DNA of 44,743 nucleotides from the NCBI RefSeq assembly GCF_003935715.1, contig NZ_RHPP01000019.1:1-44743 (forward strand). Direction: 5' to 3'. The position numbers and the translations under genes are program-made. Source of the stretch: Stenotrophomonas sp. 278 (GTDB taxonomy: Bacteria; Pseudomonadota; Gammaproteobacteria; Xanthomonadales; Xanthomonadaceae). The notes below the pieces were generated by a model that saw only the letters and a list, made by a program, of their open reading frames with translations, was not told the origin of the DNA and did no database searches. Position 1 is the stretch's first letter; each line of letters begins with the position of its first letter. Shown piece by piece: positions 2 to 40,643 of this stretch.

Positions 2-565
2 CTACGCTTTGACATGAACACTCCTCATGGCCTGGATCGGCCTTCTTGTAAGTGTCCGTGAAAACGGGGGTGAACCCGCTTGACGAATTGCCAAGGTGGT
101 CCAGGCCTTATCGCCCTTGACGAATCCGACAGTGAATCGAGCCGTAACATGGTGTTCGGGCTTGAGGCCTTCGATGGAACGGAAATCGCTGCGCACCTTC
201 GACGTGGCTACAGGCTGTACATCGCCATTGATGTACAGCGCCGCATTCCAGCTCGCTTCGCTCAATGGCAGTGTTGAGCGGTTGATGATGCGGGCGGTGA
301 TGACTGGCTTGGGCCCAAAGAAGCTGTTTTCCATCCGGAACTCTGGATCAACCGCACTGACCCTCTTTAGCTCGGCGATAGTAGGAAGTTGATCGTTGGC
401 CTCCTGTCGTAGCGCTTCTATCTCCTTGGGATTGCTATCCCTGATGTGCTTAACCTGCCCTCTCACCACCTGCCTTACGGAAGCGTTTGGGTAGGTCTGG
501 TTCAGTTTTTCAAGAAGGTCGGCAGGGATTCGTGAGAAAAACAGCCGAATCGTCTCTAACACCAT
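2..565 (-). CDS. hypothetical protein, 187 aa
   Basis: Complete reading frame with ATG at 565 and TAG at 2-4; I do not recognise the family. The first 60 residues are charged and probably helical. The rest (about residues 75-170) alternates hydrophobic and polar residues like a beta-sandwich, with the stretch PVITARIINRSTLPLSEASW resembling secondary-structure patterns of immunoglobulin-like periplasmic domains, but there is no clear signal peptide. It lies 170 bases downstream of the SseB-like gene on the same strand and may belong to the same backbone group. No function is proposed. Confidence 0.6.
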   Translation of the reverse strand: MVLETIRLFFSRIPADLLEKLNQTYPNASVRQVVRGQVKHIRDSNPKEIEALRQEANDQLPTIAELKRVSAVDPEFRMENSFFGPKPVITARIINRSTLPLSEASWNAALYINGDVQPVATSKVRSDFRSIEGLKPEHHVTARFTVGFVKGDKAWTTLAIRQAGSPPFSRTLTRRPIQAMRSVHVKA

Positions 566-20981: not shown

Positions 20982-21401
20982 TTAGCCGATCGGTGGTCGG
21001 ATCAGATGAGGCAAGGCAGGTGCCGCATGCCCTAGGGGCAGCGGCATGACATCCAGGCCCAAGGCCAGTTGCACCGAAACATGCAGGCGCGCAGGAAGTG
21101 CGCTCGCGCAAGCGTGTACGCAGGCGCACCGGCACGCAGAAGACTTGCAACAGTCGGGACCGGCATGGTCGCCATGCCCAGTGCCAGCCTTTTCAATCGA
21201 TGTGGCATCGGGATGATGCTCAGCACTGTGATGGGCGAAGCAGTCTTCGTCGACTTGCACCGCGGCAGCCACTTCGCTGGCCTGCTCTTCCATGACCGGG
21301 TTCATACTGACGGACGCAAACGCCGACCACGCGCCGTTAAGCACGAGCATGGCGATCAGGAACAGTCGCAGTAGAAGTGAGGAGGCTGACACGGGCGACA
21401 T
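20982..21401 (-). CDS. copL: CopL-family metal-binding regulatory protein
   Basis: 139 aa. The signal/anchor segment is residues 8-30 (LLLRLFLIAMLVLNGAWSA). The middle is rich in His and acidic residues (EDCFAHHSAEHHPD, GHGDHAGPDCC), followed by a dense Cys cluster, CCKSSACRCACVHACA. In Xanthomonas, copL lies directly before copAB and is required for copper-inducible expression; similar Cys-rich upstream ORFs elsewhere act through translation-coupled control. ATG at 21401 is the only well-placed start. It is the first gene of the leftward copper series. Confidence 0.85.
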   Translation of the reverse strand: MSPVSASSLLLRLFLIAMLVLNGAWSAFASVSMNPVMEEQASEVAAAVQVDEDCFAHHSAEHHPDATSIEKAGTGHGDHAGPDCCKSSACRCACVHACASALPARLHVSVQLALGLDVMPLPLGHAAPALPHLIRPPIG

Positions 21402-22827: not shown

Positions 22828-23880
22828 TCAGTCGGCTCCCCCATCTTGCGCATGGCCGCGCCGAGTTTTCTTCACCGCATTTTGTGCTGGCGTCAGTTGA
22901 TTCAGTAGAGGCTCTAGCGCTTCAAGACGTGCATTGGCACGCAACGCATCGGCTTCAGCGCTCTCGCGGCGCTCACGCTCCCGCGCAAGGGTGTCTTGAA
23001 CTTGAGCTAGCTCGTTGCGCATGGTATCCAAGGTCTTGGCGTCAGTCTTCCAGCGCTCCTGCAGTGCCAAATAGTCCGTCGCGGTCTGGCGCAACGCCAC
23101 GACCTCGCTGTGTTGGCCTTCGTGGGCCTGTCGTAGCTGGGCAAGCTCACGCTCAATCCGCCCGTGGCGCTCCAGCCATTGACCATTGTCGCGGTTCAGC
23201 ACCAACAGCTCCTGATTCTTCGCGCCCAAGGCTTCATTGGCCTGACGTAAGGCTACTTGCAGCTCTTGGACCTGATGCTCGTGACGGCGAAGCTCTTGCT
23301 CACGCTGCTCTTTGGTTGAAGTGCGGTAGTGCTCAAGCGCTTCCCGGGCATGGGCATGCTTGTCCTCCAGAGAACGCGTATGCGCCTCATGATCAGCCAG
23401 CCGCACCGTCATGCCAGCGATGCGCTCGTTCAACTGGGCGATTTCCGCGATCCTGTCACCTAGATTCTGTTGAAGGAGGGCGTGAGCAGCTTGCTCTTGG
23501 TGCAGGCTTGCTTCGGTGCGCTGCAGCCGACTGCTCAAGGCGGCAGCCTCCTCTTGGGCACCGGAAAGCGCCTGTTGCCGACTGTGGAGCTCAGCCTGAT
23601 GGCGCTCACGCTCCTGGGTGAGGATGGCCTCTGCTTCCTCCTGGAGCCGCGAGGCCAAGCGCGCAACCAAGTCCTGCAAAGCATCACTAACGGCTACCGT
23701 CCTCGCCGGACCGCCGCCTTCCTCTCCTTCCAGTTCACGCAAGTAGCGGTGGATCGTGGTCTTGGAGCCCGTGTTGCCCAAGGCCACTCGCACCGCGTCG
23801 ACTGACGGCTTCTTGCGTTGGGCCAGCAGCGCGTCGCGCGCCTTCTGGACGTCACTCTTATAGAGTCCTGCGCGCGCCAT
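22828..23880 (-). CDS. KfrA_N-type DNA-binding coiled-coil protein (TnpT-like)
   Basis: 350 aa. The N-terminal 55 residues form the KfrA_N DNA-binding domain (LYKSDVQKARDALLAQRKKPSVDAV and GNTGSKTTIHRYLRELE). From residue 70 to about 325 it is one long alpha-helical coiled coil, rich in Glu, Gln, Arg and Ala. The C-terminus is basic (KKTRRGHAQD). Two families share this plan: plasmid KfrA (nucleoid/partition) and TnpT, the resolution accessory of Tn4651-type Tn3 transposons. A 33-bp inverted repeat with recombinase-site geometry just upstream favours the TnpT reading. ATG at 23880 is the only good start. Dyads of ATTACAT/ATGTAAT immediately upstream are likely its own binding sites. Confidence 0.7.
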   Translation of the reverse strand: MARAGLYKSDVQKARDALLAQRKKPSVDAVRVALGNTGSKTTIHRYLRELEGEEGGGPARTVAVSDALQDLVARLASRLQEEAEAILTQERERHQAELHSRQQALSGAQEEAAALSSRLQRTEASLHQEQAAHALLQQNLGDRIAEIAQLNERIAGMTVRLADHEAHTRSLEDKHAHAREALEHYRTSTKEQREQELRRHEHQVQELQVALRQANEALGAKNQELLVLNRDNGQWLERHGRIERELAQLRQAHEGQHSEVVALRQTATDYLALQERWKTDAKTLDTMRNELAQVQDTLARERERRESAEADALRANARLEALEPLLNQLTPAQNAVKKTRRGHAQDGGAD

Positions 23881-23901
23881 CGTGCCACCTCACTTTATTT
23901 C

Positions 23902-23930
23902 GTAATGTATTACATACCATGTAATTACAT
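23902..23930. promoter_or_regulatory. cluster of ATTACAT/ATGTAAT dyads upstream of the KfrA/TnpT-like gene
   Basis: Within 29 bases lie ATTACAT-ACC-ATGTAAT (23909-23925), a perfect 12-base palindrome ATGTAATTACAT (23919-23930) and GTAAT-GT-ATTAC (23902-23913). Overlapping inverted and direct copies of the same heptamer just before the start suggest cooperative binding by the KfrA/TnpT-like protein, giving autoregulation and possibly a resolution accessory site. Confidence 0.55.
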
Positions 23931-23971
23931 ACTATTAAAGCAGGTAGACGACCGCTCGTCGGCGAAAATAG

Positions 23972-24004
23972 TTATACGGGATAATATTGAATTATCCCGC
24001 GTAA
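23972..24004. other. 33-bp recombination-core-like inverted repeat (13-7-13)
   Basis: TTATACGGGATAA, seven bases (TATTGAA), then TTATCCCGCGTAA. The arms match over 11 of 13 bases, or 14-base arms with 2 mismatches around a 5-base centre. Two 13-bp arms around a 7-bp spacer is typical of tyrosine-recombinase crossover sites. Its position between a TnpT-like gene and a rightward gene matches the known tnpT-rst-tnpS layout of Tn4651, in which a short inverted repeat in the gap is the crossover core. Here the tnpS position is taken by the Gabija-like gene. No second copy was seen in the window. Confidence 0.5.
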
Positions 24005-24154
24005 GGCGGATTCTGACCCTTCCCGGCGTCCCAAGCAGTACGAAACCGCCCAGGGCCGGCGATCGCTGGGTAGTATGGCCCAGAGCGGAAAGGAGGCCAG
24101 CCAGGGTGCAGGCAGGCTCCGCCACCGAGCCCGTTGGCCATCATAGGACTGTGC

Positions 24155-25735
24155 ATGCCGATCGAACGTATCGTCATCGACAACTTCAAGTCGTTTCGCC
24201 ATCTGGACCTGCCCCTCAATGCCCACATGAACCTGGTGGTGGGCGACAACGAGGTCGGTAAATCCACCCTGCTGGAGGCCATCCACGCGGTGGTCACCGG
24301 CCAGCTGCATGGGCGCAATCTTGCCTACGAGCTCACGCCCTACCTGTTCCACCAGCCCACGGTGCAGGAGTACTTGGGAGCGCTTGCCACGGGCACGCCG
24401 GCCTCGCCGCCACGGATCTCCATCGAAGCCTATCTGGGCGCCGACGCCGCGCTGGCGTCGTTACGCGGCACCAACAACTCCCTGCGTCTGGATACCGCCG
24501 GCATCCGGCTGCTGGTCGAGCTCAACGACGACTACCGCGAGGAGTTCAACGCCTACCTGCAGCAGCACCAGGGCGCGGTCAGCCTGCCGGTGGAGTACTA
24601 CACGGTGCGCTGGTACTCCTTCGCCAACAATGGCGTCACCGCCCGTAGTATTCCGTTCGACTCGACCATCATCGACACGCACGGCATCAAGACCTTGTCC
24701 GGTGCCGATCGCTATATCGCCGGCATCATCGAGCAGGCACTGACGCCTGCGCAGCGCGTCTCGCTGTCGCTGAGCTTCCGCCGCATGCGGCAGAGCTTTT
24801 CCGAAGAAGCGGATGTGGCAGCGATCAATGCCTACTTGACCGAGCACACCGGGGACATCAGCCACAGGGCATTGACGGTAGGCGTGGACACATCGTCGCG
24901 CTCAACGTGGGAAACCAGCCTGTCACCCTACCTGGATGAGCTCCCGTTCACCCAGGCCGGCAAGGGCGAGCAAAGCGCGGTGAAGATGAAGCTGGCGATG
25001 CACGCGGCCGGCGCGGCTCACGTGCTGCTGATCGAGGAGCCGGAGAACCATCTGTCCTATTCCAGCATGACCCAGCTGATCGACAAGATTGCGGCCCTCT
25101 CCACCGCCCAGCAGGTGATCATCGCCACCCACAGCAGCTTCGTGTTGAACAAGCTGGGCGTGGACAACGTGATCCTGTTCAGCGCGCAAGGCCAGATGAA
25201 GCTGGACCAGCTGCCCAGCGATACCCACGACTATTTCATGAAGCTGCCGGGCCACGACACGCTGCGGTTGATCCTGGCCAAGCAGGCGATCCTGGTGGAA
25301 GGCCCTTCCGACGAACTGATCGTGCAGCGTGCCTACAGTGACCATCACGGCGTGGCGCCGATGGCTCACGGCGTAGACATCATTTCGGTCAAGTCGTTGG
25401 CATTCAAACGCTTCTTGCAGATTGCCGATCGACTGAGGATTCAGGCCAAGGTGATCACCGACAACGACGGTGATATCGCAGTTGTGCAAGAGCGCTATGC
25501 CGAGCACATCAACGCGATCTATTACGATTCCGACGAGAGCGCCCCTTCGCTGGAAGAGCAGCTGATCAAAGCCAACTCGCTGGCCGAACTCAATACCGTG
25601 CTGGGCAAGGCCTTTGCCGATGAGGTGGCGCTGCTCAAGTACATGAAGGGCCATAAGACCGATACGGCCTTGGCGATTTTCAATAGCCCGCACTCGATCA
25701 GGTTCCCGGACTATGTCCAGCGTGCCATCACCTAA
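24155..25735 (+). CDS. gajA: Gabija-like GajA, OLD-family ATPase/TOPRIM nuclease
   Basis: 526 aa. The ABC-type ATPase half has Walker A GDNEVGKST (residues 30-38), a signature-like region near 265-280 and Walker B LLIEEPENH (catalytic Glu 295), followed by an H-loop ATHSS. The C-terminal TOPRIM half has VEGPSDE (Glu 382) and TDNDGD (Asp 436, Asp 438), the metal-binding residues of OLD nucleases. ATG at 24155 has AGGA seven bases upstream. It overlaps by 23 bases a UvrD/Rep-type helicase gene, the gene pair that defines Gabija. In Gabija GajA assembles with GajB and cuts or nicks invading DNA when nucleotides fall. It is shorter than typical GajA (about 580 aa). Confidence 0.8.
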   Translation: MPIERIVIDNFKSFRHLDLPLNAHMNLVVGDNEVGKSTLLEAIHAVVTGQLHGRNLAYELTPYLFHQPTVQEYLGALATGTPASPPRISIEAYLGADAALASLRGTNNSLRLDTAGIRLLVELNDDYREEFNAYLQQHQGAVSLPVEYYTVRWYSFANNGVTARSIPFDSTIIDTHGIKTLSGADRYIAGIIEQALTPAQRVSLSLSFRRMRQSFSEEADVAAINAYLTEHTGDISHRALTVGVDTSSRSTWETSLSPYLDELPFTQAGKGEQSAVKMKLAMHAAGAAHVLLIEEPENHLSYSSMTQLIDKIAALSTAQQVIIATHSSFVLNKLGVDNVILFSAQGQMKLDQLPSDTHDYFMKLPGHDTLRLILAKQAILVEGPSDELIVQRAYSDHHGVAPMAHGVDIISVKSLAFKRFLQIADRLRIQAKVITDNDGDIAVVQERYAEHINAIYYDSDESAPSLEEQLIKANSLAELNTVLGKAFADEVALLKYMKGHKTDTALAIFNSPHSIRFPDYVQRAIT

Positions 25736-26810
25736 CCGGGTCCTGCTCTCGGCAGCCGGCTCGGGCAAGACCACGTTGCTGGTCCGGCAGGCCTTGGAGC
25801 GACCTGAGCGCCGCATCGCGATTGTCACCTACACGCTGGAAAACCTGGAAGAGATCCGGCGCTCGTTTGAGGCCCACGCAGGCGCGGTCCCCGCGCATGT
25901 CACCTTGCACAGCTGGTATGGCTTTCTGCTGCGCCAGTGCATTCGCCCGTACCAGGCTGCGCTTTGCCCTGAGCCTCGCATCGAGACCATCCTGTTCGTA
26001 GAAGGTGTCACCAACAACCGCGCCCCACGCACCCAGGTGGCGCGCCACTACCTGGCGGGCAACCGGATGTATTCGGACCGAGCGGCCGATTTCGCTGTGC
26101 GCTGCGATGAGCTGACCCAAGGCCAGGTCGTGGCGCGATTGGCGGCGATGTACGACGAGCTCTACATCGACGAAGTCCAGGATCTGGCCGGCTTTGATCT
26201 GGATCTGGTCGAACGGCTGTTGAAGAGCGAGATTGCCATCACGTTGGTAGGCGATACGCGCCAAGCCACGTATGCGACCAACTATGCGCAAAGGTACAGC
26301 CAATACCGTGGTCCGAATCTGGCAGCGCTGTTTCAGATTTGGGAGGCCGACGGCTTATGCCGGCTGGATCACCGCCTCACCAGTCTGCGCTGCGTCCAGG
26401 CCCTGTGCGATATGGCTGACACGCTCTATCCGCAGATGCCGCGGACCCAATCAGGCAATGGCGAGGTCACCGGACACGATGGCATCTACCTCGTCGCTCC
26501 AGGGGATGTGGCCGCGTACATGCAGGAGTTCGCCCCCACCGTGCTCCGGCATGACCGGCGGCAGGCGTGCGACGGACTGCCGGCGGTGAACTTTGGGCAG
26601 TGCAAGGGCCGCACCTACAGTCGGGTCCTCATCTTTCCGAACGGGCCGTTGACGCAGTACCTGCGCACGGCCGATGCAGCGCGTATCACCGCGCCGCCGA
26701 AATACTACGTGGCCTTCACCCGGGCGCGGCAAAGCGTGGCCTTTGTGTATGCCGGCGCGTGCGCGTTGCCGGGTCATCAGCTCTATGCGCCTGCCAGCGC
26801 AGACGCATAG
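25713..26810 (+). CDS. gajB: Gabija-like GajB, compact UvrD/Rep helicase
   Basis: 365 aa superfamily 1 helicase-like protein. Walker A SAAGSGKTTLL is at residues 13-23 (Lys 19), very near the N-terminus. Motif II is LYIDEVQD (Asp 153 to Asp 157), motif III LVGDTRQATY, motif IV near LDHRLTSL, motif V-like FGQCKGRTYSRVLIF and motif VI YYVAFTRARQS. Typical GajB is about 490 aa; the 2B-type insert between motifs IV and V is much reduced. The start lies inside gajA, so the genes are coupled. It should sense DNA ends or ssDNA and activate GajA. The alternative is a related OLD-UvrD defence pair not strictly Gabija. Confidence 0.8.
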   Translation: MSSVPSPNRVLLSAAGSGKTTLLVRQALERPERRIAIVTYTLENLEEIRRSFEAHAGAVPAHVTLHSWYGFLLRQCIRPYQAALCPEPRIETILFVEGVTNNRAPRTQVARHYLAGNRMYSDRAADFAVRCDELTQGQVVARLAAMYDELYIDEVQDLAGFDLDLVERLLKSEIAITLVGDTRQATYATNYAQRYSQYRGPNLAALFQIWEADGLCRLDHRLTSLRCVQALCDMADTLYPQMPRTQSGNGEVTGHDGIYLVAPGDVAAYMQEFAPTVLRHDRRQACDGLPAVNFGQCKGRTYSRVLIFPNGPLTQYLRTADAARITAPPKYYVAFTRARQSVAFVYAGACALPGHQLYAPASADA

Positions 26811-26825: not shown

Positions 26826-31244
<4,419 letters not shown>

Positions 31245-33572: not shown

Positions 33573-35540
33573 TCATTGCTTGTTTGCGCCTGGCTGTCTA
33601 CGCACACCGGAACGGGCATTGGCGAGGAACCCCACGATGGCGGCGGTGCCTACCAATACCTGCGCCAGCAGCGACTGCCAGGTGGGATACAGGCCGATCC
33701 ACTCGATGCGCGGCAACGCGAGCGGTGTTTGAGAGATCCAGCCCGCTTCCTGCAACGCGGCCACGCCTTTACCGATCAGGATGACCGCCATCACCGCGAT
33801 GAGAATCGAGCTGATCGAAAAGAACCGGCCAATCGGCAGCCGCCTGCTCATGCGCAGCATCCAGTACGCCACCGCAGCCAACACCGCGATTCCCGCCGCC
33901 AGGCCTGCGAGGATGGCGGTGGACGCCTGATCGCTCCACATCGCGATGTAGAACAAGATCGTCTCAAACACCTCGCGGTACACCGCGACAAAGGCCAGCA
34001 TGAACAGGAAAACAGCCGAGCGCCGTGTCAGCGCAGTCGTCAGCTTGGCGTGCAGGTACTCCTGCCACCGCCCTGCAAGGCTCTTTTGGTGCATCCAGAT
34101 GCCTACGCTGAGCAGGACAGCGGCAGCGAACAAGGCCGAGACGCCCTCAGTGACTTCCCGGTTCGCACCGCTGATATCAACAAAGTAAGTGGCCACCGCC
34201 CAGGTAGCTGCGCCTGCCAACAACGCGCAGATCCAACCCGCATGCACATACGGCAACACATCAGACCGCTCGGCTTTACGCAAGAACGCCACGATACCAA
34301 TCACGATCAGCAGCGCTTCCAGTCCTTCGCGTACCAAGATGGTAAAGCTGCCTAGAAACGCGGTGCTGGCGCCTATTCGGGTGTCCTGCAGCGCCACGTC
34401 CGCGCGATCAAACAGCTGGGCAATTTGCGCTGCCTGCCCGGCAACGTCAGCCGCGGGCGCATGCTGATCCAGCTGCGCGCGGTAGCCTGCCATGGCCGTC
34501 TCGATCTCTCGCAGCAATGACGGATTGCGCGTGGCCAGCGTGGGTTCAAGCGGCTCTACACCATCCAGATAGGACGAGAGCGCAAGCTTTTTGGCTTGAG
34601 CCAGGTCCTCATCAGCGTAAGCGCGCTGGCTGGCGGCCAGTCGCTGCCGCGCCACCGCAAAGCGATCGGCTCCTGGTACCGCTTCGTTTACTACCTGTGG
34701 CTGCGAACGCAGGTAGGCGATGATCGCGTTTGCCTGATCGGCGGGCATCGTGGTGGCAAGATCGGCCTCTCGCGTGCGTGTCAGCGCTTCGAGCGAGGGA
34801 ATGTGCGTATGGGCCTCGGCACTGGTGCGCCATAACGCCTCACCTTGAGCCTTGGCTTGCGAGGAGTACCCCAAGCTGCCCACATAGAATGCCAACGCCC
34901 AGCGATCACTTTCTGACAGCCCAGAGAAGCTGACCATGCCGGTACCCGGCACACCCTGGGAAATGACCTCGTACAACGACAGCGGCGTTCGCTGCGCGGC
35001 GCGAGTGGCATCGGTGAACGCGATCGGCGGCGGACTTAACGCTTGCGCGGCGGGGCCATCACCGTGACCTGTGGGGCCGTGACAGGCCGCGCACTGCTGG
35101 CTGTAGATGGACGCGGCCTGGGAGGTCTTCGGCGCGCTCGCCGGAACAGCGCCGATCGGGTAGCGGGCCAACAGCGTCGTGCCGAGCCCGCGCGCCAACG
35201 TTGCCACTTGCGCCGGGTCGGCCTTCTCTGCCACCGCCTGGACCAGGCGGTCGGCCTGGGCCGTCAGCTCCTGCTGGTTCTGGCCACTGGGCAATGCTGC
35301 CAGCTGACTGCGCACGGCGCCGGCAAACTCGCTCATTTCGGCGTATTCGTTGGGGGCAATTACGCGACCGGCCTGGACCGCGCCGGGGTAGTCGACCGCG
35401 ATGTAATCGAGCATCTGCCAGGTTTGGCGCAGGTCTGCTGCGGCAGGCTCCGCCTGAGCAGAAGCGGGCAGAACCCAGCCGATCAGCAAGGCAATCAGGC
35501 AGTAGCGAATCAAGGCGATGGGCAGTGGCATGGTCGTCAC
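33573..35540 (-). CDS. pbrT: PbrT-like FTR1 permease with cytochrome c domain
   Basis: 655 aa. The signal peptide (residues 1-29) is followed by a periplasmic helical region and a cytochrome c domain with CAACHG near residues 155-160. Then comes an FTR1/iron-permease membrane part with seven segments, containing REGLEALLIV and REVFETI, the paired REXXE motifs that bind ferric-type ions. This composition is that of PbrT, the uptake permease of the Cupriavidus pbr lead operon, and also of iron permeases fused to cytochromes. The adjacent divergent MerR regulator of PbrR/CadR type favours PbrT. It is the first gene behind the MerR promoter at 35580-35610. Confidence 0.82.
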   Translation of the reverse strand: MTTMPLPIALIRYCLIALLIGWVLPASAQAEPAAADLRQTWQMLDYIAVDYPGAVQAGRVIAPNEYAEMSEFAGAVRSQLAALPSGQNQQELTAQADRLVQAVAEKADPAQVATLARGLGTTLLARYPIGAVPASAPKTSQAASIYSQQCAACHGPTGHGDGPAAQALSPPPIAFTDATRAAQRTPLSLYEVISQGVPGTGMVSFSGLSESDRWALAFYVGSLGYSSQAKAQGEALWRTSAEAHTHIPSLEALTRTREADLATTMPADQANAIIAYLRSQPQVVNEAVPGADRFAVARQRLAASQRAYADEDLAQAKKLALSSYLDGVEPLEPTLATRNPSLLREIETAMAGYRAQLDQHAPAADVAGQAAQIAQLFDRADVALQDTRIGASTAFLGSFTILVREGLEALLIVIGIVAFLRKAERSDVLPYVHAGWICALLAGAATWAVATYFVDISGANREVTEGVSALFAAAVLLSVGIWMHQKSLAGRWQEYLHAKLTTALTRRSAVFLFMLAFVAVYREVFETILFYIAMWSDQASTAILAGLAAGIAVLAAVAYWMLRMSRRLPIGRFFSISSILIAVMAVILIGKGVAALQEAGWISQTPLALPRIEWIGLYPTWQSLLAQVLVGTAAIVGFLANARSGVRRQPGANKQ

Positions 35541-35621: not shown

Positions 35622-36035
35622 ATGAAAATCAGTGAGGCTGCCGACGCCAGCGGATGCCACTTGGAGACGATTCGCTATTACGAGCGGATCGGGTTGCTGC
35701 CGCGCCCGGGGCGCACGGGCAACGGCTACCGGGTCTATGGCCCGGCCGACATCGAGCGGCTGCGCTTCATTGCGCGTGGCCGGGACCTGGGCTTCAGCCT
35801 GGAGGAGGTCCGCAGCCTGCTGCAGCTGGCCGGCGATGAGGAGCTTTCGTGCGGGGACGTGGACCGGTTGGCCCGCAGCCATCTGGCCGACGTGCGCGCC
35901 CGCATGGCCGACCTGCAGCGCATGGCCAGCGAGCTGGAACGGGTGATTGCCAGTTGCCATGGCGGGCAGCGGGCGGAATGCACCATCCTGTCGACGCTGC
36001 GCCAGACGACCTCGGTGGAGGCCACGCGCCAGTGA
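35622..36035 (+). CDS. MerR-family regulator, PbrR/CadR/ZntR type
   Basis: 137 aa. The N-terminal winged helix-turn-helix is MKISEAADASGCHLETIRYYERIGLL. A long dimerisation helix follows, and the metal-binding cysteines are Cys 77 (SCGDVDRL), Cys 112 and Cys 120 (SCHGGQRAECTIL). This three-Cys set is typical of sensors for Pb, Cd and Zn, not Cu. ATG at 35622 is the family start. The TGA at 36033-36035 overlaps the GTG start of the recombinase at 36032 (GTGA), so the two genes are translationally coupled. Confidence 0.88.
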   Translation: MKISEAADASGCHLETIRYYERIGLLPRPGRTGNGYRVYGPADIERLRFIARGRDLGFSLEEVRSLLQLAGDEELSCGDVDRLARSHLADVRARMADLQRMASELERVIASCHGGQRAECTILSTLRQTTSVEATRQ

Positions 36036-37303
36036 CCGAACTGGACCGCTACCTCGATGCGGCCACGCGCCAGAACACGGTGCGCAGCTATGCGTCGGCG
36101 CTGCGGCACTTCGAGGTTGAATGGCAAGGCCACCTCCCAGCGACACCTGACAGCGTGGCCCGGTACCTGGCCGCTTATGCGCAGACCTTGGCGACCAGCA
36201 CCCTCCGCCAACGTCTGGCGGCCATCGCCTCTTGGCACCGCGACCACGGCTTTGTCGACCCGACCCGATCGCCGCTGGTGCGCAAGGTGCTCAAAGGCAT
36301 CCAGACCCTGCACCCGGGCCAGGTCAAGCAAGCCGCGCCGCTCCAGATTCGGCGGCTGGTCGAGCTCGATGACTGGCTGGCCGCGGCGATCGCTGCGGCA
36401 CATGCCCGGGGCGATGGGCCGGCGGCGCTGCGCCATCAACGAGACCGAGCGCTGGTGCTGCTCGGGTTCTGGCGGGGATTCCGTGGCGATGAACTGCTGC
36501 GTCTGGACGTGGCCCATCTCACGCTGGTGCCGGGACAGGGGATGACCTGCTTCTTGCCACGCAGCAAGGGTGATCGCCAAGCAGCCGGCGTCACCTACAA
36601 GGTGCCGGCGCTGTCGCGGTTATGTCCGGTGGAGGCGACCCAGGCGTGGCTGCAGGCGGCCGACCTGCAAGAAGGGCCGGTGTTTCGGGCAGTCAACCAA
36701 TGGGGCCAGGTGAGCGCCGAAGGCCTGCATCCCAACAGCTTGGTGCGCCTGCTGCGCGAGTTGCTGACCAGTGCAGGCTTTGCCGATGCGGGGCTCCACA
36801 GCAGCCATTCGTTGCGCCGCGGCTTTGCCAGCTGGGCCAACGACCAAGGCTGGGACATGAAGGCCTTGATGGAGTACGTGGGCTGGCGCGATGTGCAGTC
36901 GGCCATGCGTTACCTGGACGGGCGTGACCCGTTTGCCCGGGACCGCATTGAAGCAAGCCTGCCCAGTCCAACCGTGCCGGTACCGGCGATGGCACTGCCG
37001 GCGCCGGAGGGCAAATCGGCCCTGCAGCTGCGCCTGCGCATGGTGCTGACCCCGTTTGCCCGCACGGGCCGCGGCGCGGCCAAGGCCCGAGGCCGAATTG
37101 AAGAGATCTGCTTGGCCCCGTTCCAGGCTGTGCGCCTGAACACCGCCAGCAGCGAGTACCAGTTGACTGCTCCCACCGATCCCGAAAGGGATCTGGATGA
37201 AATCCTGGCCACGTTGCTCGATGACATGCACCGCATGGCCGATACGCACCAGTGCTTCCTGGAAGCGTCGCTCAGTACAGACGACGGCCGGCACTGGGAC
37301 TGA
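36032..37303 (+). CDS. tyrosine recombinase of the transposon (TnpI/TnpS-type)
   Basis: 423 aa from the GTG at 36032. The SAM-like N-terminal DNA-binding domain (residues 5-90) is followed by the catalytic domain with Arg 151 (RGDELL), His 259-x-x-Arg 262 (HSLRR) and nucleophile Tyr 294 (AMRYLDG). After the tyrosine it continues for about 125 residues (296-423), a long extension with a Pro-rich linker and an acidic helical end (DLDEILATLLDDMHRM). The gene precedes tnpA by 24 bases. In Tn3-family elements such recombinases resolve cointegrates in place of a serine resolvase. GTG 36032 is preferred because upstream sequence codes for MerR in another frame. Confidence 0.82.
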   Translation: MTELDRYLDAATRQNTVRSYASALRHFEVEWQGHLPATPDSVARYLAAYAQTLATSTLRQRLAAIASWHRDHGFVDPTRSPLVRKVLKGIQTLHPGQVKQAAPLQIRRLVELDDWLAAAIAAAHARGDGPAALRHQRDRALVLLGFWRGFRGDELLRLDVAHLTLVPGQGMTCFLPRSKGDRQAAGVTYKVPALSRLCPVEATQAWLQAADLQEGPVFRAVNQWGQVSAEGLHPNSLVRLLRELLTSAGFADAGLHSSHSLRRGFASWANDQGWDMKALMEYVGWRDVQSAMRYLDGRDPFARDRIEASLPSPTVPVPAMALPAPEGKSALQLRLRMVLTPFARTGRGAAKARGRIEEICLAPFQAVRLNTASSEYQLTAPTDPERDLDEILATLLDDMHRMADTHQCFLEASLSTDDGRHWD

Positions 37304-37327: not shown

Positions 37328-40321
37328 ATGGCTACCCTTCACGAGACCGCCTACCCGCGACTGAAGCCTGATCCCACCGCCAAGGAACTGGAGGAGATCT
37401 ATACCCCGACCGCCGCTGAGATTGCATTCGCCAAGCAGCTGACCACCCAGCCGGGTCCGCAGCTGGCGGTACTGATTCATCTCAAGCTCTTCCAACGCTT
37501 GGGCTACTTCACGCTGTTGGCCGACGTACCCGAGCGGATCCGGAAGCACATCGCCAAGGCCGCCCGACTCGGGCGCGTATTGGACACCGACCAGCTCGAA
37601 CGCTACGACGCTTCCGGCAGCCAGCGCCGGCATATGCCGCAGCTTCGGCAATTCATCGGGGTACGTCCCCTGGATAAATCGGGCTTGGCTTGGCTGGACA
37701 CAGTGGCCACCGGAGCAGCCCAGACCAAGCACACCATCCCGGACATCGTGAACGTCCTGCTCGAAGAGCTGGTGCACCATCGCTACGAACTGCCCGGTTT
37801 CCGCACTCTGGAGCTGGCCGCCATCGGCGCCCGTGAGCGGGTCAATCTGGGCTACTACCGCAGCATCAGCCACGCGCTGACGCCTGCCACGCGCACGCTC
37901 ATCGACGAACTGCTGCGCGCACCGGAAGGGTCCAGGTTCACCGGCTGGCAATCACTCAAGCGCGAGCCCGGCCGGCCCACCAACAAGGAAGTTCGGTTCT
38001 ACCTGCAGCACATCCGCATGCTGCAGCAGTTGGCCGACCAGCTGCCTCCCATCGATGTGCCGGTGCCCAAGCTCAAGCAGTTCCGTGCAATGGCTCGGGC
38101 CTATGACGCCAGCGAGCTGGCCGAACTGGCTCCGGACAAGCGCTATGCGCTGGCCACCATCTTCATTCGCGCCCAGCATGCCAAGACACTGGATGATGCA
38201 GCCGAGTTGTTCATCAAGCAGGTGCGCGGGCTGGAGAACACGGCCCAGCAGAAATTGCTGGCCTACCAGCTCGAACATGCCAAACGGGCCGACTTCCTCA
38301 TCGGCCAGCTCAAGGAAATCCTGCAGGCCTATCAGCTAGACGGCAGCGATAGTCAGCGCGTGGATGCCATCGACAACAGCCTGGAAGCGGAAGTGTCGAC
38401 CTTGCTGGCCGAATGCGAAGAACATATGGCCTACGCCGGGAAGAACTACCTGCCTTTCATGCTGCAGCCCTATGGCGCGGTCAGGCCGCTGCTGTTCAAT
38501 GGGCTGGAGCTGATGAAACTTCGGGCGACCAGCCACGACGCCGGCATGGAGCCGCTGATCGCAGCGGTGCTCTCGCTGCGCAACCAGCGCCGTGAGCTGA
38601 TCGAGGTCGCCTCCCTCGGTTTGGACCCGGAAAAGGACTTTGACTGGATGTCCAAGCTCTGGTGTCAGCACGTGTTCGGCAAGCGGGCCAGTGCAGCCGG
38701 CGCCGGCTGGATGCACCGTAAGTACTTCGAGCTGGCCGTGCTGGTGCAGGTCAAGGACGAACTGAAGTCCGGAGATCTCTTCATTCCCAGCAGCGAACGG
38801 TTTGATGACTACCGTGAGCAGCTGGTCGATGAAGCCACCTTGGCCCAGGAACTGGAAGCCTACGGCCAGGTGTCAGGCCTGCCCACCGACGCCGAGTCTT
38901 TCGTGGCGGGATTACGTGCACAACTGACCTCCCTGGCCGATGAGGTCGACGCGCGTTTCCCGGAGAACGTACATGCGGACATCCTGGATGGGCGCCTGGT
39001 GCTGCGGAAGGGGCAACGCGCCGAAGTCTCCAGCGCGATTACCACGGTGGATCGCCTCATCGCCGAACGGCTTCCAGAATCCAGCATCGTCGATGTCCTG
39101 ATCGATGCCAGCCAATGGCTGGATCTGCACCGTTTCTTCCGCCCGATCGCCGGCACCGAGAGCCAGGTCGAAGATCTGCCCCGACGTGTGATCACCACGC
39201 TATTCTGCTATGGCTGCAACCTGGGGCCGACGCAGACGGCGCGGTCGATCAAGGGCTTCAGCCGGCGCCAAGTCGCTTGGCTCAACCTGAAATACGTGAC
39301 CGAGGATGTGCTTGAGAAGGCCATCGTGGAGGTCATCAATACCTACAACAGATTCGACCTGCCTGGCTATTGGGGCAGCGGCAAGAGCGCATCAGCTGAT
39401 GGCACGAAGTGGAGCGTCTACGAGGACAACCTGCTGTCGGAGTATCACATCCGCTACGGCGGCTACGGTGGCATCGGCTACTGCCACGTGTCCGACAAAT
39501 ACGTAGCGCCGTTCAGCCACTTCATTCCCTGTGGCGTGCACGAGGGCATCTACATCCTCGACGGTCTGTTGGCCAACACTTCCGACATCCAGCCTGAGAT
39601 CGTCCATGGCGACACGCAGGCCCAAAGCTATCCGGTCTTCGGCCTGGCCCACATGCTGGGCATCCAGCTGATGCCCCGGATCCGGAACATCAAGGACCTG
39701 ACATTCTTTCGGCCCGAACCGGGTAGGGCTTATAAGAACATCCAGGCACTGTTCGGGGACAGCATCGACTGGCAACTGATCGCCACCCATCTCCACGACA
39801 TGCTGCGGGTGGTGATCTCAATCCGATTGGGCAAGATCACCGCGTCCTCGATCCTGCGCCGGCTGGGCACCTACAGCCGGAAGAACAAGCTGTACTTCGC
39901 CTTCCGGGAACTTGGCAAGGCCGTTCGAACGCTGTTCTTGCTGCGCTACATTGATGACAATGAGATCCGCAAAACGATCCATGCTGCCACCAACAAGAGC
40001 GAGGAATACAACGGCTTCGTGAAATGGGTGTTCTTTGGCAGCCAGGGGATCATTGCTGAGAACGTCCAACACGAGCAGCGCAAGATCATCAAGTACAGCC
40101 AGCTGGTGGCCAACATGATCATCCTCCACAACGTGGAAGGCATGAGCCGGACCTTGGCCGAGATGAGGAAGGAGGGGATTGAACTGACGCCCGAGATCCT
40201 GGCCGGCCTGTCGCCTTATCGGACCAGCCACATCAATCGCTTCGGCGACTACCACCTGGATCTTGAAAGGGAAGTGGCGCCGCTGAGCTACACAGCCAAG
40301 GTGCTTGAACAGACCCCATAG
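37328..40321 (+). CDS. tnpA: Tn3-family transposase TnpA
   Basis: 997 aa, the usual length. The N-terminal DUF4158-type region (TAYPRLKPDPTAKELEEIYTP) binds the terminal repeats. The catalytic core of the DDE type shows Asp 691 (SADGTKW), Asp 762 (HGDTQAQ) and Glu 892 (NKSEEYNGF), all present, so it is probably active. It follows the recombinase directly, forming the transposition module. I could not assign the subgroup with confidence, and terminal inverted repeats of about 38 bases beginning GGGG were not found beyond the stop. The whole cargo between the recombinase and gajA may belong to this element. Confidence 0.9.
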   Translation: MATLHETAYPRLKPDPTAKELEEIYTPTAAEIAFAKQLTTQPGPQLAVLIHLKLFQRLGYFTLLADVPERIRKHIAKAARLGRVLDTDQLERYDASGSQRRHMPQLRQFIGVRPLDKSGLAWLDTVATGAAQTKHTIPDIVNVLLEELVHHRYELPGFRTLELAAIGARERVNLGYYRSISHALTPATRTLIDELLRAPEGSRFTGWQSLKREPGRPTNKEVRFYLQHIRMLQQLADQLPPIDVPVPKLKQFRAMARAYDASELAELAPDKRYALATIFIRAQHAKTLDDAAELFIKQVRGLENTAQQKLLAYQLEHAKRADFLIGQLKEILQAYQLDGSDSQRVDAIDNSLEAEVSTLLAECEEHMAYAGKNYLPFMLQPYGAVRPLLFNGLELMKLRATSHDAGMEPLIAAVLSLRNQRRELIEVASLGLDPEKDFDWMSKLWCQHVFGKRASAAGAGWMHRKYFELAVLVQVKDELKSGDLFIPSSERFDDYREQLVDEATLAQELEAYGQVSGLPTDAESFVAGLRAQLTSLADEVDARFPENVHADILDGRLVLRKGQRAEVSSAITTVDRLIAERLPESSIVDVLIDASQWLDLHRFFRPIAGTESQVEDLPRRVITTLFCYGCNLGPTQTARSIKGFSRRQVAWLNLKYVTEDVLEKAIVEVINTYNRFDLPGYWGSGKSASADGTKWSVYEDNLLSEYHIRYGGYGGIGYCHVSDKYVAPFSHFIPCGVHEGIYILDGLLANTSDIQPEIVHGDTQAQSYPVFGLAHMLGIQLMPRIRNIKDLTFFRPEPGRAYKNIQALFGDSIDWQLIATHLHDMLRVVISIRLGKITASSILRRLGTYSRKNKLYFAFRELGKAVRTLFLLRYIDDNEIRKTIHAATNKSEEYNGFVKWVFFGSQGIIAENVQHEQRKIIKYSQLVANMIILHNVEGMSRTLAEMRKEGIELTPEILAGLSPYRTSHINRFGDYHLDLEREVAPLSYTAKVLEQTP

Positions 40322-40364: not shown

Positions 40365-40643
40365 TCAGTCGCTTAGGCAGCTTTTGGCCCTGTACGTAAT
40401 GATTCCCTGCCGACCCTCTTCAAGGTTCATCCCAGCGACTGCCCAGTTGAAGGCCGCTCTTTCGTGGGCATTGAGTTCCGCGTCGATAGCGTCAATTGAC
40501 TGCCGGTATTGCTGCTGGGTTCCATTCGTAACCATCTTCTTGTCTGTCGGACCGCTGCAGGCAGCTAGCAGTGCTGATGCTGCCAGGATCAGTGTTGCTC
40601 TGCTTCTGGCCGCGGTGATGAAGCGGTATGGCTGTTCGCTCAT
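40365..40643 (-). CDS. small lipoprotein, function unknown
   Basis: 92 aa. A signal with lipobox (LLAAC, Cys near residue 29) is followed by a short soluble domain (YRQSIDAIDAELNAHERAAF). ATG at 40643 has a GGGGGA site. The pattern resembles small DUF6694-type lipoproteins, but the match is by eye. It is divergent from the XRE gene at 40738, and a dyad at 40672-40690 lies between them. It ends 43 bases beyond tnpA, convergently, so it probably marks the flank of the transposon. Confidence 0.6.
   Translation of the reverse strand: MSEQPYRFITAARSRATLILAASALLAACSGPTDKKMVTNGTQQQYRQSIDAIDAELNAHERAAFNWAVAGMNLEEGRQGIITYRAKSCLSD

Follow-up and report, generated by a model that had tools for sequence, protein, structure and literature searches.

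Why does a phage-defence operon stand beside the resolution site of a transposon, at the place where the gene for the resolution recombinase would be expected? The question is raised by a 44,743-nucleotide (nt) stretch of Stenotrophomonas sp. 278 (contig NZ_RHPP01000019.1, assembly GCF_003935715.1), here called the window and analysed at its full length. Between positions 22,828 and 25,735 it holds a tnpT-like gene, an inverted repeat and gajA, the first gene of a Gabija pair. The preliminary description of this region proposed that gajA had replaced or displaced tnpS, the recombinase gene of a Tn4651-type transposon, so that an orphan resolution site and its accessory protein were left joined to a defence system. 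We found that positions 514-40418 are one 39.9-kb Tn3-family transposon of the Tn4651 subgroup, TnXax1-like and with a TTCAA duplication on both sides, and that tnpS is present on it, 12 kb from the core of the resolution site rst, behind merR and before tnpA. The left arm contains a terminal repeat, copper genes, tnpT and the accessory site, and the right arm contains gajAB, metal genes, merR, tnpS, tnpA and the other terminal repeat; the two arms meet at the rst core. Very probably this is a two-arm transposon joined at the core, with passengers (gajAB first) ahead of tnpS and with arms that have been exchanged by TnpS at rst.

The rst core, tnpT and the Gabija pair

The KfrA_N coiled-coil gene is tnpT, as had been supposed. 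Its product was 62% identical to TnXax1 TnpT and 47% identical over 243 amino acids (aa) to Tn4651 TnpT, with an expectation value (E) of 7.5e-46 (E 1.2e-33 for the first 115 aa), whereas R751 KfrA, the one KfrA compared, gave E 0.22 over the full length and 2.8e-4 for the first 115 aa. By these pairwise comparisons it groups with TnpT and lies far closer to the Tn4651 protein than to R751 KfrA, and an identity as a plasmid KfrA partition protein was rejected. The ATTACAT/ATGTAAT dyads reported upstream are present at 23909-23925 and belong to a putative accessory site common to TnXax1 and Tn4651. The 33-bp repeat of 13-7-13 geometry is also real: 11 of the 13 arm positions are complementary, and it aligns with the TnXax1 core, with which it shares CGGGATAAT-5-ATTATCCCG. 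Its centre CGGGATAATATTGAATTATCCCG (23977-23999) was the sole match in the window to a pattern derived from TnXax1 with at most three mismatches, and 100 shuffles gave none. A 21-base core pattern was present in 38 of 395 genomes of the family, and a control read backwards in none of them. No RNA families were found.

Gabija is known as an OLD-type ATPase with a TOPRIM domain encoded beside a UvrD-like helicase by overlapping genes, and the same arrangement was found here: a GajA-family protein with ATPase and TOPRIM domains and an adjacent GajB helicase, with strong PADLOC matches for both. The preliminary description had called the genes Gabija-like. The preferred start of gajA is the ATG at 24155, matching an annotated relative. 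Among the positions listed, the TOPRIM motifs TDNDGD and VEG were invariant down to a relative at 44% identity, and the Walker A motif GDNEVGKST was partly varied. Ratios of non-synonymous to synonymous substitution (dN/dS) were 0.03, 0.05 and 0.09 in three comparisons, which places gajA under purifying selection and fits a working gene; its predicted role is phage defence. Similarity to the solved GajA was confined to profile positions 279-438 (E 1.2e-8), and no solved structure of this very GajA was found.

The gene gajA does stand first to the right of the core, the position of tnpS in TnXax1, and to this extent it could be taken to have replaced the recombinase gene. However, tnpS was found downstream, on the same strand, at all 22 loci with tnpT, core and gajA in the 395 genomes, at a distance from gajA of 3.3 to 32 kb (in G057 it is truncated where the contig ends), and none of these loci lacked it. 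The word displaced thus holds, as a block of passengers separates rst from tnpS in the window and at the 22 loci, and the word replaced does not; the loss of tnpS is refuted for the window, and we leave practically no weight on it. With recombinase and site on one element, resolution could still work.

Shuffling of arms at the core

We compared the arms in an alignment of 21 of the 22 family loci (G381 was left out) with TnXax1, in which 110 nt to the left and 164 nt to the right of the core were typed. The 21 loci gave 10 left types and 9 right types, combined in 15 ways. With one choice of thresholds, 18 of the 210 pairs were discordant; another choice gave 28 high-contrast pairs, which are not independent of each other, and in 26 of them the best change point fell in the interval from -1 to +31 relative to the core start. 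When further core loci and plasmids were added, 38 distinct junctions showed 19 left types, 22 right types and 33 combinations. As the largest possible one-to-one pairing is 17, 16 combinations are in excess. This set includes loci from plasmids and named genomes and was reached after 4 of 42 rows had been dropped for wrong orientation; some of the approximately 50 core places (a hand count) lie outside it, having no fetched locus, standing at contig ends or failing the filter.

All four combinations of two left and two right arms were present: the window (l0,r0), X. nasturtii (l0,r3), S. nematodicola (l9,r0) and S. maltophilia 13146 (l9,r3). Over 600 nt, left arms of the same type were 0.998 and 1.000 identical and those of different types 0.656-0.657. 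For the right arms the values were 1.000 and 0.967 against 0.826-0.844 over 120 nt, and 0.997 and 0.948 against 0.917-0.927 over 600 nt. Several pairs had 700 of 700 nt identical on one side of the core, with the identity ending within 1-6 bases on the other. In the pairs L029/L098 and L093/L120 the left arms were identical over 700 nt, the identity ended 2 and 6 bases past the core, and the right arms were unrelated (0.51 and 0.48). Arms are thus shuffled, with the break at the core. Complete plasmids showed the shuffling as well (L003/L006, and L004 against TnXax1, with 0.99 identity over 600 nt on the left and 0.49 over 120 nt on the right), which means that draft assembly is not the cause.

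One left arm was found with several unrelated right arms (G203, G330, G264), as would be expected if passengers had inserted repeatedly at a hot spot to the right of the core and arms had never been exchanged. A hot spot cannot explain why different left arms are joined to the same right arm. This was seen in L018/L019 and L022/L023, where the right arms were identical over 700 nt and the identity ended 2 bases left of the core. As a sole cause it is also contradicted by the four-combination set, and we regard it as very improbable.

RecA-dependent homologous recombination within the short conserved stretches around rst and tnpT could also have exchanged the arms, with no part for TnpS. One exchange lies inside tnpT, at about -141 (G331C2 against G331C1 and G319), and the two G331 elements share one genome, as this route would have it. 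However, 26 of the 28 change points are at the core, and beyond the one shared arm several pairs have in common just the 21-base core and 1-6 bases, the other arms being about 0.5 identical. Such a length is short for RecA. Homologous recombination suits the break inside tnpT and not the other breaks, and as the general route of exchange it seems improbable to us.

Recombination by TnpS at the core is the simplest account of the exchange, for which the arm shuffling is indirect support. Where two elements share a cell, TnpS would recombine their cores in the way that Cre acts at loxP, and the arms would be exchanged. In this way a tnpT-side arm (copper genes, xopE, a SEC-C protein) could join various tnpS-side arms, those on offer being gajAB with metal genes, a mercury-like arm, chromate genes and a bare tnpS. 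The rst core matches a lox site in size, and TnpS showed a weak similarity to Cre (E 5e-4). Cointegrate resolution by TnpS at rst in Tn4651 was reportedly described by Genka (2002) and Yano (2013). The same activity of TnpS in Tn4651 is given in the available part of PMC7157771 (2020).

Several observations weigh against exchange by TnpS at rst. Two of the 28 change points were off the core, at -141 (inside tnpT) and at -36, and some of the support intervals were wide (for example -27 to +372 for G354/G275). The right-arm pair of the same type at 0.948 over 600 nt is not far above the different types. The alleles of the core spacer follow neither arm consistently. No second core bounding the passenger block on its other side was found in the window, at up to three mismatches.

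In one of the complete plasmids, pLH3.1 (L004 9900-15091), the core joins a gajAB right arm to a xopE-tnpT left arm whose identity to the TnXax1 left arm is 0.99.

Features of the element and the passengers beside rst

Similarity to the Xanthomonas plasmid pLMG930.1 begins at 511 and ends at 40418 of the window. Between 20900 and 27200 the identity was 99.7%; tnpT of the plasmid carries a short deletion. The terminal repeats were scored by local match to the TnXax1 repeat, with three shuffles as a control (scores 13-14). The features of the window are given in the table.

Features of the Stenotrophomonas sp. 278 window, with the evidence for each
Feature	Position	Strand	Evidence
Target duplication TTCAA, left copy	509..513	.	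5 bp
Left terminal inverted repeat, GAAGGTCGGCAGGGATTCGTG..., transposon start	514..549	+	TnXax1 repeat match score 28
copL-like gene, near end of left-arm copper cluster	20982..21401	-	Matching pLMG930.1 stretch annotated copL
tnpT, resolution accessory protein (KfrA_N and coiled coil), 350 aa	22828..23880	-	Pfam KfrA_N E 1.1e-25
Putative rst accessory (TnpT) site, dyad ATTACAT..ATGTAAT	23898..23934	.	Common to TnXax1 and Tn4651
rst core, 13-7-13 inverted repeat, 33 bases	23972..24004	.	Aligns with TnXax1 core; conserved centre 23977-23999
gajA (OLD-family ATPase and TOPRIM)	24155..25735	+	PADLOC GajA E 2.4e-298; Pfam AAA_15, OLD-like_TOPRIM
gajB (UvrD-like helicase), overlaps gajA	25713..26810	+	PADLOC GajB E 7.4e-194
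Heavy-metal RND pump gene, first of efflux set, passenger	27098..30301	-	Pfam ACR_tran; pLMG930.1 annotation CusA/CzcA
FTR1-family gene, passenger	33573..35540	-	FTR1 annotation in pLMG930.1 relative
merR-family regulator	35622..36035	+	Pfam MerR; overlaps tnpS start by 4 bases
tnpS, tyrosine recombinase	36032..37303	+	61% to TnXax1 TnpS; 57% over 296 aa to Tn4651 TnpS
tnpA, Tn3-family transposase	37328..40321	+	72% to TnXax1 TnpA; NCBIfam transpos_Tn3
Right terminal inverted repeat, GAGGGTCGGCAGGG..., transposon end	40371..40418	-	TnXax1 repeat match score 20
Target duplication TTCAA, right copy	40419..40423	.	

In the survey of the 395 genomes, at a GajA cut-off of E 1e-60 or better, GajA was found in 29 genomes. 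There were 31 matches in all, of which 26 were 81-100% identical and 5 were 32-44% identical. Directly upstream of gajA, tnpT and the core were present at 22 of the 26 close loci (GajA at 81% or more), although tnpT is in two parts in G331:C2 and incomplete in G381. Among the four other close loci, a degenerate core precedes gajA by 184 bases in G058, and a remnant of the tnpT 3' end was present in G307 and G253 (scores 32-37, shuffle maxima 14-22); at G371 neither core nor tnpT remnant was detected, and ars genes come after gajAB, an order that some of the transposons share. The core was absent at all five distant matches. Additionally, 84,980 species genomes were scanned with a peptide pattern, and 20 loci were returned. 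Nineteen were at 81% or more and came, except for one metagenome bin, from Xanthomonas, Stenotrophomonas, Pseudoxanthomonas, Thermomonas, Luteimonas or Lysobacter; the remaining one was a Eubacterium locus at 42%.

Between the core and tnpS the window has gajAB, the efflux set, the FTR1-family gene and merR. Some of the gajAB arms also carry an arsenic operon, placed after gajB and ahead of the efflux genes (L003 18013-21355; L058). The merR gene directly precedes tnpS in all 24 gajAB arms with tnpS within the examined stretch; in four tnpT-core-gajA loci (L046, L047, L048, L060) tnpS lies beyond that stretch, and they are not counted among the 24. In the gajAB lineage, where tnpS comes right after merR, exposure to metals may govern the expression of tnpS, and the transposition genes of these arms may be under metal control. 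In the shortest gajAB arm (L056) approximately 220 nt separate gajB and merR; here, as in other gajAB arms, merR translationally overlaps tnpS, and no FTR1 gene was found. Many TnpS matches (G264, G062, G214, G369 and others) ended near residue 320 of 423 with a TGA there, which would fit a shorter form of TnpS, for example that of Tn4651 with 323 aa.

The location of gajAB also allows a more tentative reading, compatible with arm exchange by TnpS, in which the old tnpS promoter within rst would drive the pair under the control of TnpT and defence would be coupled to transposition. The core precedes gajA by 164-179 bases, as measured at the 22 loci and in six plasmid relatives, and tnpT is divergent. 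In Tn3 transposons toxin-antitoxin genes abut res, and promoters there are thought to drive them, according to the available part of PMC7157771. Against this coupling, a scan of rst limited to the sigma-70 consensus found no promoter.

Defence genes as a rule at the rst site were rejected. In other arms with tnpS behind different cargo, L120 carries chromate genes, L125 a gene resembling that for mercuric reductase, and L127/L128 a P-type ATPase; in L122 an outer-membrane efflux gene stands near the core, with no tnpS within the examined stretch. Strong PD-Lambda-2_B PADLOC matches lie near two other rst cores (L129 3787-4998, E 1.8e-44; L130 4648-5763, E 1.9e-48) and perhaps represent further defence or toxin-antitoxin genes in this position. 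At a contig end, an rst core has a gene for a restriction-enzyme-like protein nearby (L124 763-2085). Partner genes were not recognised for these three matches, and tnpS was found in the examined stretch for L130 only.

Relation to known elements and implications

TnXax1 (pXAC64), which the available part of PMC7157771 assigns to the Tn4651 subgroup, has TnpT, TnpS, TnpA, accessory site and core as in the window. In TnXax1, however, tnpS follows directly after the core with no gajAB or metal genes between, whereas the window has its passengers there. The window element has a TnpA of this subgroup (72% to that of TnXax1), the tyrosine recombinase TnpS together with TnpT, and terminal inverted repeats with a 5-bp target duplication. 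Its rst is not between divergent tnpS and tnpT; it adjoins tnpT, with tnpS 12 kb away. The element is a variant layout of the Tn4651 subgroup, filed in the same way as TnXocp1 in the part available of PMC4619425 (2015). That source, as far as its accessible text goes, describes passengers between tnpS and tnpT in TnXocp1, TnXop1, TnSml1 and TnPsd1, with two genes in common, and terms the region highly variable. The two common genes are presumed to be gajAB. In the same portion Gabija is not named and arm exchange is not described, and TnpA of TnXocp1 is 41.1% identical to that of TnXax1, as compared to 72% for the window TnpA.

Much of the architecture has thus been published before. Our search, made on listings and passages of the open-access literature, found no paper that combines Gabija with tnpS, tnpT, Tn4651 or TnXax1 and no report of arm exchange at rst by TnpS. 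As far as searched, the Gabija identity and the evidence for the rst core as a site of arm exchange are new. Shuffling by serine resolvases was reportedly treated by Kholodii in 2001 ('The shuffling function of resolvases'). The available part of PMC7157771 reports, for serine resolvases, that toxin-antitoxin modules abut res and that exchange occurs between Tn3 transposons at res. These systems are alike in exchange at the resolution site and in the non-transposition genes beside it, and differ in having a serine resolvase at res, whereas the window has a tyrosine recombinase at rst with a defence operon and metal genes.

We lean, with less assurance, towards a wider reading in which rst is a natural joint resembling Cre-lox that shuffles arms among Xanthomonas, Stenotrophomonas and relatives. 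The elements would evolve as libraries of interchangeable halves, and one lineage of right arms would have fixed Gabija beside the joint and tnpS-tnpA behind a metal-sensing MerR. If so, a single step, with no need for long homology, could bring any gene of a left arm (copper resistance, effectors) together with any right arm (Gabija, other metal resistance). Resolvase-mediated shuffling would be extended from serine to tyrosine resolvases, with a clean prediction on a 21-bp site. This would help to explain how copper transposons are assembled in plant pathogens and Stenotrophomonas, and why a phage-defence system travels with metal resistance.

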